Of a stretch of 64,000 nt of DNA, positions 23,326-36,050 are shown piece by piece; positions within the stretch are counted from its first letter, which is position 1, and the number at the start of each line of letters is the position of its first letter. The notes under the pieces are model-generated. The model saw only the letters and a list, made by a program, of their open reading frames with translations, was not told where the DNA came from and ran no database searches. The DNA is from Actinomycetota bacterium (GTDB lineage: Bacteria > Actinomycetota > Actinomycetes > S36-B12 > UBA5976). The translations under genes and the position numbers were made by a program. The DNA lies in assembly GCA_009698575.1 (NCBI GenBank), contig WLPX01000001.1, positions 190,924-254,923 of the forward strand. The letters are read 5' to 3'.

Positions 23326-24525
23326 CTAATTTTTTGCGGGAATTGTTTCCCAGCCACGCAATACAAAAGTTGGTCGCTGCACCGGCTCGCCTGCTAATTG
23401 CAAATTTGGAAATCTCTCAAACAACATTGGTAGTGAATTTTGCATTTCTAATCGAGCCAACGGCGCACCAATGCAAAAATGAATGCCGGCACCAAAGGCA
23501 ATATGTGGATTATGTTCGCGTGTGACATCAAACGTATCTGGATTTTCGAAAACTTCCTCATCTCTATTTGCCGACCCAAGCATTGCCACAACTTTTTGCC
23601 CTACCTGGACGGTAGTTTTTCCAATTACAGTTTCTGAGGTTGCAGTGCGTTCAAACATATGTAGTGGTGAATCAAACCTCATCATTTCTTCCAGAGCAGT
23701 TACGGTATTTTTCCGTGCCGAACTTTTCATCAAATCCAATTGGTCAGAATTTCTAAACATTGCAACCATGCCATTGCCAAAACCATTGACTGAGGCTTCA
23801 TGGCCCGCATTTAAAAGCAAAACGCACATTGCAATTAATTCATGTTCATTCAATTTCTCGCCTTGTTCTTCAACTTCAACCAAGGCCGTAATTAGATCCG
23901 ATTTTGGCTCAAGTTTTCGAAGTGCGGCCAACTCAGCAATGTAAGAACTGAATTCAAAGCCTGATTTTTGCGCAGCTAATTCTTGTTCGCGAGTGCGTCC
24001 ATACTCATACATTTTCACAATATCTTGAGACCAGCGCCGCAGGTCATTTGCTTTTTCGCGAGGCACGCCAAGCAGATCTGCAATTACCAGAACCGGAAGT
24101 GGTTCAGCGAAATCTGCGAGCACATCAAAGCTGCCCTGAGCTTGTAACTTAGCCTGAGCTTTGTCGAGCAAGCCGTTACAAATGTCAATGATGTTTGGTT
24201 CCAGCGCAGCTATTCGCCCAGGCGTAAATGCCTTTTGCACTAAGGCGCGTAGCCTGGTGTGTTTTGGCGGCTCGCTGTCCAAAATGGAATCAGAATGCAA
24301 CCAATTAAATATTTCCCATTGATCGAAAGGTTCTTGTGGTTCGTAAATTCGGCCCAGGCTCTTGGTTCGCAATGTGGCATTTGCAGTTTCATGCGTAGGG
24401 GCTAACCACAATCCCAAGCGTTCGCTCCAAACTAAATCTCGACTTGCTCTTAGCTCGCGATAAATGTCATATGGATTAGCTACAACTCGTGGATCACGAG
24501 TATCCAAAATGTCAGCCGTACTCAT
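23326..24525 (-). CDS. Cytochrome P450 (CYP107-like)
   Basis: The 399-residue soluble P450 has an I-helix motif AGHEAS at residues 240-245 (serine where threonine is usual), ExxR at 280-283 and the heme-ligand loop FGAGIHFCIGAP with Cys351. It resembles CYP107-type bacterial monooxygenases. It sits among menaquinone genes and is coupled to a four-helix membrane protein gene upstream. A 29-base tandem duplication covers its start, so an upstream copy of the start opens a 10-codon reading frame that ends on the P450 ATG. No ferredoxin or reductase is adjacent; the small ferredoxin at 56459 could serve it. Substrate unknown. Confidence 0.9.
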   Translation of the reverse strand: MSTADILDTRDPRVVANPYDIYRELRASRDLVWSERLGLWLAPTHETANATLRTKSLGRIYEPQEPFDQWEIFNWLHSDSILDSEPPKHTRLRALVQKAFTPGRIAALEPNIIDICNGLLDKAQAKLQAQGSFDVLADFAEPLPVLVIADLLGVPREKANDLRRWSQDIVKMYEYGRTREQELAAQKSGFEFSSYIAELAALRKLEPKSDLITALVEVEEQGEKLNEHELIAMCVLLLNAGHEASVNGFGNGMVAMFRNSDQLDLMKSSARKNTVTALEEMMRFDSPLHMFERTATSETVIGKTTVQVGQKVVAMLGSANRDEEVFENPDTFDVTREHNPHIAFGAGIHFCIGAPLARLEMQNSLPMLFERFPNLQLAGEPVQRPTFVLRGWETIPAKN

Positions 24526-24559
24526 GCGCTTTCCAAAATGTCAGCCGTACTCATGCGCT
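24503..24559. repeat. 29-base tandem duplication at the P450 start
   Basis: The 28 bases at 24503-24530 recur exactly at 24532-24559, a period of 29. Each copy contains, on the minus strand, GCGCATGAGTACGG, i.e. an ATGA start/stop overlap. The copy nearer the membrane-protein gene holds that gene's stop codon; the other holds the P450 start. Confidence 0.93.
24522..24554 (-). CDS. Ten-codon minicistron made by the duplication (MSTADILESA)
   Basis: The duplicated start at 24554 opens a 10-residue frame that copies the first seven residues of the P450 and then stops with TGA overlapping the true P450 ATG (ATGA at 24525-24522). Its own ATG overlaps the TGA of the upstream membrane-protein gene. 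It may keep translational coupling running from one gene to the next. No function of the peptide is implied. Confidence 0.4.
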   Translation of the reverse strand: MSTADILESA

Positions 24560-24967
24560 AGTAGTTAAATCTTCCTTATACCCAATTGATTTAATCGGCA
24601 AGGTGATCACATAAAGCGCAGCAAAGCCCGCTCCAATGCCAACAAAAATCCAACGTCCGGTAGTTGCGGTACCTGGAGCTAAATATGTAAGCGCCGATAA
24701 AGCGGCTGATACAAAAACCATTACTACCGCAGCTCGGCGAAATGCTGGGTCAGCAGCATTTCTGGAAGTTGTCGCCATGTGAGTTGCTAATGCAATCAAT
24801 AAAATCGCGGTCAGTCTAAATGACCACACAAGAGACTCGTTTGCAGTCAGTCCGATGTAATCAACAAATGCAGTCGGATCAAACAGCAAGGCTGCGGCGC
24901 TTAGCGCAAAAACAATAGAACCAATAATCATTACTAGGCGTGAATATCGGTACCTCGAGTTTCGCAT
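24551..24967 (-). CDS. Small four-helix membrane protein, function unknown
   Basis: The 138-residue protein has four hydrophobic segments (about residues 12-30, 45-63, 78-96 and 105-124) joined by short loops and a basic N-terminus. I recognise no family. Its TGA stop overlaps the first of two duplicated ATG codons leading into the P450 gene, so the two are probably one unit. The ATG at 24967 is preceded by TACACT and six bases and lacks a ribosome site, which suggests a leaderless mRNA. Confidence 0.75.
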   Translation of the reverse strand: MRNSRYRYSRLVMIIGSIVFALSAAALLFDPTAFVDYIGLTANESLVWSFRLTAILLIALATHMATTSRNAADPAFRRAAVVMVFVSAALSALTYLAPGTATTGRWIFVGIGAGFAALYVITLPIKSIGYKEDLTTSA

Positions 24968-24973
24968 GTTCTT

Positions 24974-24979
24974 AGTGTA
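24974..24979 (-). promoter_or_regulatory. -10 box of a probable leaderless promoter (membrane protein-P450 unit)
   Basis: TACACT on the minus strand lies exactly six bases before the ATG at 24967. Confidence 0.6.
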
Positions 24980-25009
24980 GAACCGAGCTATCTGATTGGC
25001 CTGCTTGGA

Positions 25010-25867
25010 CTACTTATGCAACAGTCCAGCACTAGTTAATTGGGTATCACAATCTGTGGAGCCAGGGATCGGAGCTTCAGGTGTGCGAGCTGGACAAACT
25101 CGTTCGAAGGCACAGTAATCACACAATCTAGATACTCGTGCTTCCCACGACGAACTCGCTACATCTGATTCGGAGCCTGCCCGCATTTGAGCTAACTTTT
25201 CACCTTGCGCAATTACTAAGCCTGAATCAGCAGGTCGTCGCACAACCTCTTTAGCATTTAAGAAAATGAGTTCAACTTCATCAACATCGATATCGTGTTG
25301 GGTTTTAAAACCAAGTGCATACAAATATGGTTGCGCCAATTTATCGTCGATAAATTTTCCAGGACTTTTCCCAGTTTTATAATCCGTTACTCGATTAACA
25401 CCATCTACTGTGAATCGATCTACTTTGCCAAAAAAGTTTACGCCATTAATTTTGACACTTAATTCCATCTCCAGATGCTCGGGCTGGACCACTACTTCTT
25501 TCGGGTCTTCTACGACAAACAAGTTTTCGATTGCTTCCTTAACGCTATGTTTCATCTTCATGTCAGATTCAAATGGCTTGTATTCAGTAGCTTTGAGCAT
25601 TCGTGGTCCATGCTCACGCAGCAAGTCCATTGCTGCTTCAAGTGTTCGATCATTTGGCGAGAGTCGATATAGATGTTCAACAACTTCGTGAGTGATCGAA
25701 CCACCAGCTAGTGCTGAGGTTGGTGGTTCGCGCCAACCATCGATGTAAGAAAAGAAATACTTCAATCCGCACTGTTGGTACAACGACATTTGAGAGTACG
25801 AAACGCGTTTTGGCAAACTAGCGGTTGTGGGTTGCTCAACATCAACTCGCAAAGATTTATCGGCCAC
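25010..25867 (-). CDS. RecB-family (PD-(D/E)XK) exonuclease with Fe-S cysteines
   Basis: The 285-residue protein matches the RecB-type nuclease domain: VSYSQMSLYQQCGLKYFFSYI at the start, GGSITHEVVEHLY, the catalytic core with VDRFTVDGVNRVTDYKTGKSP, and a C-terminal LCDYCAFERVCPA. The first cysteine (residue 33) and the three near the end form the iron-sulfur pattern seen in Cas4/AddB-like nucleases. It probably trims DNA ends during repair. A stand-alone form like this is common in actinobacteria. The GTG start at 25867 has an AAGG box upstream. Confidence 0.87.
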   Translation of the reverse strand: MADKSLRVDVEQPTTASLPKRVSYSQMSLYQQCGLKYFFSYIDGWREPPTSALAGGSITHEVVEHLYRLSPNDRTLEAAMDLLREHGPRMLKATEYKPFESDMKMKHSVKEAIENLFVVEDPKEVVVQPEHLEMELSVKINGVNFFGKVDRFTVDGVNRVTDYKTGKSPGKFIDDKLAQPYLYALGFKTQHDIDVDEVELIFLNAKEVVRRPADSGLVIAQGEKLAQMRAGSESDVASSSWEARVSRLCDYCAFERVCPARTPEAPIPGSTDCDTQLTSAGLLHK

Positions 25868-33545: not shown

Positions 33546-33575
33546 CTTACAAACCTGAAAACTTACAAACCTGAA
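33546..33575. repeat. 16-base tandem duplication over the ccsB stop codon
   Basis: CTTACAAACCTGAA occurs at 33546-33559 and again at 33562-33575, a period of 16. The second copy contains the end of the ccsB coding region (minus strand, TTCAGGTTTGTAAG), so the last codons and stop of ccsB are repeated once downstream of the gene. Confidence 0.9.
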
Positions 33576-34567
33576 TAAGAGTGCAGTCCTTGCACGTACA
33601 TATTCACAATGAAGTAATTGAAAATAATTGCGCCGTATCCAGCAATCGCCACAAAAGCTGCTTTGCGTCCACGCCAACCGGCAGTTGCTCGGGCATGCAA
33701 GTAGGCAGCATAAATTACCCACGTAATAAATGCCCAAGTTTCTTTTGGATCCCAACCCCAATACCGACCCCAAGCTGCTTCTGCCCAAATTGCGCCAGCA
33801 ATAACTGCAAAGGTCCAGATTGGAAACATGAAGGCATGGATTCGATATGCCATTAGATCCAGACGATCAGCTGATGGAATTCGCTGCGCTAGTGCTGCGC
33901 TTCGCCCTGGTTCCAGTCCGGCAGCAACTCGGTCTTCGGCAGCCTGCGCTACTAAATACAAACCCGAAAGTGCAGCGCCTACTGTAAACGCACCCATGCA
34001 CACAGTTGCAGCTGTGACGTGGATAGCTAGCCAGTAGGAATTAAGTGCGGGAACTAACTGAGCACTATCGGTATAAAGCACTGTGATTGCCAGTCCCAAA
34101 TCAAGCAGCACTGGCATCGTTATGAAAACTCCCAGCCAACGCAAATCACGCGTTAGCGACAACAGGCAATAAGCAAGCGAAACTGCAAAGCCCGCGGCTA
34201 GCGAAAACTCATACATATTTCCAATCGGTGGCCGGCCAGCTGAAAGTCCACGAAAAACAATTCCCGTTCCCAGCAATATTGTGCCGAGCCAAGTTAGCGA
34301 CATGCCGATATTTCCAGCACGCCGACCTTCACCTCGGCCAGCTTCATCAGATACAGATGTTGATACGGCAGGTCGGTCAAGAGTTGCTGTGGCACCCATG
34401 CGAACTTGGTGTGAAGCACTACTTCTTTCAACTGAAGTTTCTAAAGTTTCTAGTCTGCGGCCTTTGGCCAGCGAAATACTAAAGGCCACCATCGCGCCAG
34501 TAAATGCAGTCATTGATCCATAGACCATGGCATTGCTTGCTTGCGCCAATGTTTCATTAACGGTCAT
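33563..34567 (-). CDS. ccsB: Cytochrome c biogenesis protein CcsB/CcsA (heme handling)
   Basis: The 334-residue membrane protein carries the WWD-type heme-handling motif WAEAAWGRYWGWDPKETWAFITW near residue 265, plus conserved histidines in membrane helices (SYWLAIHV, RIHAFMF). It exports and attaches heme to apocytochrome c together with ResB. It overlaps the upstream resB by 11 bases and closes the minus-strand ccdA-resB-ccsB set. Naming of CcsA/CcsB/ResC differs between organisms. Confidence 0.92.
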   Translation of the reverse strand: MTVNETLAQASNAMVYGSMTAFTGAMVAFSISLAKGRRLETLETSVERSSASHQVRMGATATLDRPAVSTSVSDEAGRGEGRRAGNIGMSLTWLGTILLGTGIVFRGLSAGRPPIGNMYEFSLAAGFAVSLAYCLLSLTRDLRWLGVFITMPVLLDLGLAITVLYTDSAQLVPALNSYWLAIHVTAATVCMGAFTVGAALSGLYLVAQAAEDRVAAGLEPGRSAALAQRIPSADRLDLMAYRIHAFMFPIWTFAVIAGAIWAEAAWGRYWGWDPKETWAFITWVIYAAYLHARATAGWRGRKAAFVAIAGYGAIIFNYFIVNMYVQGLHSYSGL

Positions 34568-36050
34568 TAGTTTCCTCCGGTGCAGGTACTAGTTTGGCAA
34601 GTTGCAAAATCTCATTTGCTAAGCCAGGAGCTTCAGTTTTTGATAGGCCAGCAACTTCAATCAGATTACCTTCACTCGGAGTTGATGTCACTCGCAGCCA
34701 AGCCCGGCGCCTCGGGATCAATAGTGAAAGTGACAGACCAACTATGGATGCAATTGCAGCTCCAAGTGCCCAGCCCTTGCCAGGGTCTCGAGTGATAGCA
34801 AACGATGCCCACTCTCGATAACCCGAGAATTCAACAGTTACGCCAGAGTTTGGTAATTTCCAAGTTTCACCGGGAGACAATTCTTCGATTCCAATTCGTT
34901 TCATGTTTTCGGTATCTAGGCGATAAACACTTTGCGGCATTCCAGAATCGAGACCTAAATCACCGATCCAGGCACTGAGGTAAACCTGCGGATTATCTGC
35001 AGCTGGAAACTTTGATTTGGGTCCATGGCTAAAGTCACCTGAGGCGGTGGGTAAGAAAAATCCTTGGATGCCAAGTTGGGGAACTGTGTCAGGAACCTTT
35101 ACTACACCACTTGATGTGAACGCCCCGTCTTGCGGCAAAAATACTGCAGCGTCTTGCCAAACTATATTTCCCTTGGCATCGCGAATCGTAAATTCCGGTG
35201 CATAGCCATGACCAACTAAGTAGGCCGTAATTCCTGAAGTTCGTAGCGGATCATTAACTTCAATCCGCAAATCCCGCGGTTGTGCATCCTGGTTGTCTTT
35301 AACAGCTATGTCTGCAAAAAATTCGCGCGGTGCACCATTTTGTCGCCCGCCGCGTTGATATGTCGCACCAAAATCTTTTAGCAAAAAGGAGATAGGCGGC
35401 AACTGGTCTGGCCCGAACATTCGTCCTGGTGCAAAAGTGTCATACTGCGTGACATTGTTTGCAAAGCCCGAACCCTCTCGAACAATTACCGTGCCACGGA
35501 AACCCACTGCGCCTCCCACACCAACTGCAACCAACAAAACAAGCAACGCAAGATGAAAAATTAAATTTCCAGTTTCGCGGGAATAGCCTTTTTCCGCAGA
35601 AATCCAACCATCACCGGTACGAACTCTCCAACCCCGCTTTTTCCACGCTTGTTGGGTTTCAGCAATTATTTCTTCTGCTGGCCTGGTGCTGTAACACTGT
35701 TGATGTGCCGGTAAACGACTTAAGTTTTTAGGAGCTACTGGAGGCAAACTGCGGATCTCTTTGTAATGTTCAAGTGCCCGCGGTAAAACACACCCTGTTA
35801 ACGAAATGAAAAGTAATAGGTAAATTGCCGCAAACCAAGGTGAGGCAAAAACATCGAACATGTAAAGCCGATCCAGAATTGGACCGCTAGTTGGATTATC
35901 TTGCAGAAACTCTTTTACTCGGAGTGGCGAAGTTCCGCGCTGTGGGAAAAGTGATCCCGGCACGCTTGCCAATGCCAATAAAAATAGCAAGATCAAGGCG
36001 ATGCGCATGCTCGTTAATTGCCGCCATAACCAGCGCAAATTTGCCATCAC
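34557..36050 (-). CDS. resB: Cytochrome c biogenesis protein ResB
   Basis: The 497-residue protein has the ResB signature at the start (RIALILLFLLALASVPGSLFPQRG), a few N-terminal helices, a large extracytoplasmic domain (about residues 190-430) and a final membrane helix. It works with CcsB in system II cytochrome c maturation. It is preceded by ccdA after 20 bases. Confidence 0.92.
   Translation of the reverse strand: MMANLRWLWRQLTSMRIALILLFLLALASVPGSLFPQRGTSPLRVKEFLQDNPTSGPILDRLYMFDVFASPWFAAIYLLLFISLTGCVLPRALEHYKEIRSLPPVAPKNLSRLPAHQQCYSTRPAEEIIAETQQAWKKRGWRVRTGDGWISAEKGYSRETGNLIFHLALLVLLVAVGVGGAVGFRGTVIVREGSGFANNVTQYDTFAPGRMFGPDQLPPISFLLKDFGATYQRGGRQNGAPREFFADIAVKDNQDAQPRDLRIEVNDPLRTSGITAYLVGHGYAPEFTIRDAKGNIVWQDAAVFLPQDGAFTSSGVVKVPDTVPQLGIQGFFLPTASGDFSHGPKSKFPAADNPQVYLSAWIGDLGLDSGMPQSVYRLDTENMKRIGIEELSPGETWKLPNSGVTVEFSGYREWASFAITRDPGKGWALGAAIASIVGLSLSLLIPRRRAWLRVTSTPSEGNLIEVAGLSKTEAPGLANEILQLAKLVPAPEETNDR

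Follow-up and report, generated by a model that had tools for sequence, protein, structure and literature searches.

A membrane-protein-like gene and a cytochrome P450 gene meet at positions 24503-24559 of a 64,000-nt stretch of DNA (the window) from an uncultured freshwater bacterium, whose genome is labelled G000. Both genes are encoded on the minus strand, and the junction between them carries a 29-nt tandem duplication that gives rise to a ten-codon reading frame, here called the minicistron. The features are as follows.

24551-24967, minus strand: upstream gene, ORF of 138 aa, membrane-protein-like by eye, ending in GC-ATGA, matched in 21 of the 23 genomes of the genus
24551-24554, minus strand: first ATGA, overlap of membrane-gene stop and minicistron start, corresponding in the alignment to the one ATGA that ten single-copy relatives have
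24532-24559, minus strand: upstream repeat copy, 28 nt, from direct reading of the sequence and Tandem Repeats Finder
24503-24531, minus strand: downstream repeat copy, 29 nt with an extra A at 24531, a 29-column insertion relative to the ten relatives
24522-24554, minus strand: minicistron ATGAGT...GCATGA, ten codons, MSTADILESA* from ORF reading, and MSTADVLEDA* at locus L053 of genome G018
24530-24534, minus strand: GGAAA, weak Shine-Dalgarno (SD)-like stretch 5' of the P450 start that owes its position to the duplication, -3.3 kcal/mol with an assumed anti-SD
24522-24525, minus strand: second ATGA, overlap of minicistron stop and P450 start, the same in L053
23326-24525, minus strand: downstream gene, cytochrome P450 of 399 aa (Pfam PF00067, E 8e-28)

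The 138-aa upstream ORF has no match in Pfam or NCBIfam. Read along the transcript, the TGA of the membrane gene overlaps the ATG of the minicistron, and the TGA of the minicistron overlaps the ATG of the P450 gene, both links being ATGA. Residues 1-7 of the minicistron are a copy of the P450 N-terminus. The distance from the membrane-gene stop to the P450 start is 25 nt and was put there by the duplication. The initial annotation had described a duplicated ATGA junction that creates a doubly overlapping chain, and this description is borne out by the sequence, the ORFs and Tandem Repeats Finder. At a score of at least 50, this program returned one array in the 64-kb window, located at 24503-24559 with a period of 29, 2.0 copies, a match of 100% and a score of 114. 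In transcript order, the first copy comprises 28 nt and the second consists of the same 28 nt preceded by one A (24531). Had the single-copy-type sequence simply been duplicated over 29 nt, a T would be expected at this position, so that either one substitution or a 28-nt duplication with one inserted base probably accounts for the A.

Mycobacterial interspersed repetitive units (MIRUs) are described as short units, located at the start of a gene, with an ORF coupled to that gene at -4 nt, and their insertion is said to spare the expression of the flanking gene (PMC12548453). The unit in the window likewise has an ORF with a -4 overlap to a flanking gene, a likeness that extends to the overlap only. 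MIRUs are reported to be repetitive and apparently mobile (PMC12548453), whereas the window unit exists as two adjacent copies at a single locus and was copied from the junction itself. With up to three mismatches allowed, the 25-nt repeat core occurs at these two adjacent sites and nowhere else in the 1.70-Mb assembly. The repeat was also not found outside the P450 junction locus in the 23 genus genomes, the lone match in G003 being that genome's own single P450 start. Since the unit is furthermore built from the local junction and the first P450 codons, the insertion of a mobile MIRU-like repeat at the start codon has next to no probability.

The distribution of the duplication was analysed in 23 genomes of the genus, 21 of which contain the membrane gene. 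The duplication is present in two of these 21 genomes and a single ATGA in ten, while the P450 gene is spaced differently in six and the other three lack a P450-length frame within 250 nt. Three of the six genomes with other spacings are tightly arranged, with a 12-nt overlap, a longer overlap with an uncertain start, and a TAA directly followed by ATG (one each); the remaining three have a 50-nt gap ahead of the P450 gene. The two carriers of the duplication are G000 and its nearest genus member, G018, and their P450s are 94% identical. At L053, G018 contains the same 29-nt insertion with diverged copies, both ATGA links and its own version of the minicistron. In the alignment with the ten single-copy relatives, the 29-column insertion is confined to these two loci. 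A comparison with close relatives had been proposed in the initial annotation, which named single copies in all other strains as the outcome that would speak against the duplication. Instead, the duplication turned out to be common to two species, with diverged copies in the second one.

The same observation bears on the quality of the assembly. A wrongly expanded repeat would be suggested by the identity of the window copies over 28 nt and by the fact that the relatives in the collection are metagenome assemblies. However, G018 is a separate genome that carries the insertion with mutually different copies, located well within a contig, 4.5 kb into its 12.6 kb. An assembly artefact is therefore highly improbable.

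In a midpoint-rooted P450 tree of 18 rows, the window and L053 form a group with a support of 99/98, and the distribution of the duplication requires one change of state. One sequence in the P450 comparison, L060 (CAMBGF010000008.1), comes from a record titled Bifidobacterium breve; its P450 is 83% identical to that of the window and groups with the freshwater genus, and the record is probably a mislabelled MAG. Over the first 23 bases, counted by eye, copy 1 of G018 differs from copy 1 of the window at one position and from copy 2 of G018 at four. Few differences between the first copies of the two species and more between the two copies of G018 are the pattern predicted for a duplication older than the split. 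Most simply, judging from these sequences, the duplication is a derived state common to the two species. A 29-nt tandem duplication over the -4 (ATGA) overlap of membrane gene and P450 gene would thus have become fixed before the window species and G018 separated. The divergence of G000 and G018 is uneven across loci, with 0.44 at fourfold sites of the P450 and membrane genes (104/235) and 0.12 at those of an aldehyde dehydrogenase gene (19/157), which suggests recombination or uneven rates.

The formation of the chain can be understood from frame arithmetic. With a duplicated length of 3k+2, the first ATG and the second TGA fall into one frame. In simulated tandem duplications of 8-90 nt across the ATGA of the ten single-copy relatives, a relay, i.e. 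a frame linked to both genes, arose in 97.8% of 12,740 cases with 3k+2 lengths and in none of 25,440 cases with 3k and 3k+1 lengths. Duplications of 3k length (13,020) led to an N-terminal extension in 31.7% and to a stop before the second start in 68.3%, and 84.3% of those with 3k+1 length (12,420) run out of frame into the P450 gene. Lengths of 3k+2 thus preserve both links almost by default, and chance enters through the length class, which is one of three. In the initial annotation, the stop codon was said to restore coupling by chance, in a situation where a length not divisible by three would otherwise have disconnected the genes. The restored chain exists, but it follows almost automatically from the length. 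The supposed disconnection is not supported in that form, as the membrane gene and the P450 gene are in different frames anyway and the P450 gene has its own start regardless.

After terminating at the TGA of the membrane gene, ribosomes could reinitiate on the overlapping ATG and synthesise the ten-residue peptide MSTADILESA; termination at the second TGA would then allow them to begin the P450 gene at its ATG. The relay would then act as a spacer that moves post-termination ribosomes across the 25 nt inserted between the two genes, and the peptide would most likely have no function of its own. That the genes are co-transcribed, that the minicistron is translated, that ribosomes reinitiate at each link and how far the P450 level is affected are all inferred. 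Overall, the reading that a derived 29-nt duplication created a three-step relay that carries ribosomes, with a most likely functionless peptide, is favoured with a probability of roughly 0.6.

Work on reporter pairs provides the main argument for such a role. Gaps of about 20 nt are reported to have almost abolished coupling in three pairs from E. coli and three from H. volcanii (Huber et al. 2023, PMC10666635). In the E. coli pairs, which have a native overlap of -1 rather than -4, the addition of 38 nt reportedly removed 80-90% of the coupling in two pairs and all of it in the third, and with 14 additional nt 60% of the coupling was left in one pair and less than 20% in another (PMC10666635). 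Judging from these reporters, most of the coupling would be lost across a gap of 25 nt, and the relay plausibly preserves it. In addition, the relay has been kept in L053 although both flanking genes differ from those of the window at 44% of fourfold sites, which counts in its favour.

The SD-like sequences give a more divided picture. The energies given here rest on the standard anti-SD sequence, which was assumed because no 16S rRNA gene was found in G000 or in any of the 23 genus genomes. In E. coli, the removal of the SD sequence is reported to lower reinitiation by 60-90% or wholly in four of five pairs (PMC6728339). The stretch at the P450 start scores -3.3 kcal/mol, compared with -1.9 in seven and +0.6 in one of eight single-copy relatives scored. 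Among 34 sampled ATGA junctions the median is -5.6, and 82% score as strong as the P450 site or stronger. At the first link, the start of the minicistron, there is no good SD sequence (+0.6 kcal/mol), which counts against the relay, as do the weakness of the site ahead of the P450 gene and the restriction of the duplication to two species. A search for sigma-70-like promoters, the only type covered, gave no match in 24300-25300, with 1.8 matches expected from shuffled sequences; this is a point in favour of the relay reading.

A different explanation is that the duplication is a neutral scar that drifted to fixation, with the P450 gene starting mainly de novo from the weak GGAAA or through another entry and negligible translation of the minicistron. 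This explanation is possible, but it falls short of being probable. It is favoured by the 3k+2 length, which gives the relay nearly automatically, and by simulations with indels ignored, in which drift alone keeps the minicistron frame free of stops with a probability of 0.76-0.94. In modelled mRNA structures, the accessibility of the P450 start is 0.55 in the window, 0.27 in L053 and 0.23-0.63 in the ten single-copy relatives; the absence of a consistent predicted change with the duplication is likewise in line with a scar. Furthermore, three relatives have the 50-nt gap in front of the P450 gene, and tight coupling is therefore not essential in the genus. On the other hand, an ATGA with the stop inside is located directly at the P450 start in 12 of 18 genomes with an adjoining P450 gene (10 single, 2 duplicated), and coupling is reported for four of the five overlapping E. 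coli pairs tested (PMC6728339). The weakness of the SD-like site also speaks against predominant de novo initiation.

The minicistron itself contains no clean sign of purifying selection on peptide or frame. Between G000 and G018, 4 of its 25 free bases differ, which is below the fourfold rate (p 0.003), with 74/162 fourfold sites differing in the P450 gene and 30/73 in the membrane gene. Two of the ten codons are changed, both non-synonymously (I/V and S/D), and there is no synonymous change, let alone an excess, as would be compatible with the neutral explanation. The neighbouring 43-nt spacer is as conserved as the minicistron (5/43 differ). As the spacer is equally conserved and drift is likely to keep the frame open, the low divergence is not clean evidence for selection.

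These data also bear on the idea that the minicistron is a regulatory leader or encodes a functional peptide, for example one that tunes P450 synthesis. The retention of ten codons in two species agrees with this idea, and a precedent exists in ORF27-iraD of E. coli, where the next gene is described as controlled through repression of a short overlapping ORF (PMC5574718). However, the peptide begins with seven residues copied from the P450 N-terminus, and both codon differences between the species change the residue. A regulatory or peptide function is accordingly considered very unlikely. Like the minicistron, ORF27 is short and ends in a stop that overlaps the start of iraD, whose translation it couples; it differs in its leader position, its own SD sequence and its CsrA sites, as described in the source, while the minicistron lacks a good SD sequence and follows another gene (PMC5574718).

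Returning to the ribosome-carrying relay, several known systems share parts of its design. The RTGA-linked coupled small ORFs of mycobacteria are likewise short ORFs with a TGA overlapping the next start (Shell et al. 2015, PMC4633059). The defining overlap, a TGA on the RTG start of the next gene, is found in the window and also in L053. In the mycobacterial example, coupling is reported to persist without conservation of the peptide sequence (PMC4633059). These small ORFs are described at the beginning of leaderless transcripts, whereas the minicistron of the window is located inside a gene pair, overlaps the upstream gene and originated by local duplication (PMC4633059). Overlapping termination-reinitiation pairs have the same co-directed stop/start overlap (PMC6728339, PMC10666635). 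An overlap of -4 or -1 characterises this class, and the window contains two successive ATGA, adding an interposed minicistron to the pairs as described.

In the bicistronic design developed for C. glutamicum, a short fore-cistron ends on the target start and has an SD-like site inside its end, as is the case here (PMC10367133). That design is engineered, with a strong SD sequence and a TAATG link, as opposed to the weak site (-3.3 kcal/mol, assumed anti-SD) and the ATGA link in the window (PMC10367133). For the txe minigenes, the distance between minigene stop and gene start is reported to have mattered more than the length of the minigene (PMC8708949). Among the literature matches listed, there is no report of a minicistron born by duplication of a junction. 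What sets the minicistron apart from these known systems is that it arose from a copy of the junction and is placed within a gene pair.

The relay in the window is real, common to two species, mechanistically plausible and small in consequence, and it changes no known principle of translation. Its value lies in being a natural doubly overlapping minicistron that arose in a single step and can be compared with single-copy relatives. This allows a before-and-after comparison of how two successive stop/start overlaps and a single one pass ribosomes on. A further prediction is that surviving duplications over ATGA junctions are enriched for lengths of 3k+2.

A second relay before an aldehyde dehydrogenase gene is a lead in the same genome. 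At C1:15063-15104 of G000 (L077), a 13-codon frame joins the ATGA of an M20-peptidase-like gene to the ATGA of the aldehyde dehydrogenase gene, both named by eye. Matches occur in all 23 genomes, paralogues included, and the 16 loci with the highest identity were examined, one per genome (L099-L114). The upstream gene is present at 13 of these loci and a relay at eight of the 13, seven via ATGA and one via GTGA. The eight relays have 11-13 codons, with 35 or 38 nt from start to start (2 mod 3 in every case), and they exit through a TGA or TAA on the dehydrogenase start (ATGA or TAATG). The retention of these distances counts in favour of the relay reading. These eight loci are related, and G000 has an in-frame alternative start 87 nt upstream. 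The other five of the 13 loci have TAA or TAG stops, which offer no start.

A survey of the frequency of relay chains covered 1.264 Mb sampled from five genomes of the genus (G000 and G013-G016), with frames of at least 120 codons and ATG second starts only. Two chains were found among 138 ATGA stops and two among 270 C/G/TTGA pseudo-start controls; for short frames the counts were 2/37 and 2/171 (p 0.15), which is not a significant excess. A recurrent genome-wide use of the relay design is not supported by these counts. It has further been considered that tandem duplication of ATGA junctions is a general birth route of relay minicistrons, that selection for coupling lets 3k+2 lengths survive between species, and that such relays, including the one before the aldehyde dehydrogenase, form a recurrent selected operon element of the genus; this broader proposal is doubtful.

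Tandem repeats were listed for the same 1.264 Mb. Of the 46 rows, two reach into a stop/start overlap where a long frame ends, namely the array at 24503-24559 and a 29-nt array in G015. The latter (G015:C3:347559-347624, in L146) has 2.3 copies with a match of 97%, and its unit contains GCCGGAATGATTTCGGC. It was rejected as a relay: it is located at a gene end, just behind a gene judged by eye to be secA-like, two frames converge there, and a five-codon frame has no coupled gene behind it.

An initial survey had covered 464 kb with frames of at least 100 codons and had also allowed T(A/G)ATG first links. A third candidate relay, of 15 codons at position 34559 of the window, was dismissed, since an in-frame ATG lies upstream and the downstream gene, judged by eye, most likely starts earlier. 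The candidate lies where two frames that look cytochrome-c-biogenesis-like by eye meet on the minus strand (around 33565-36050).
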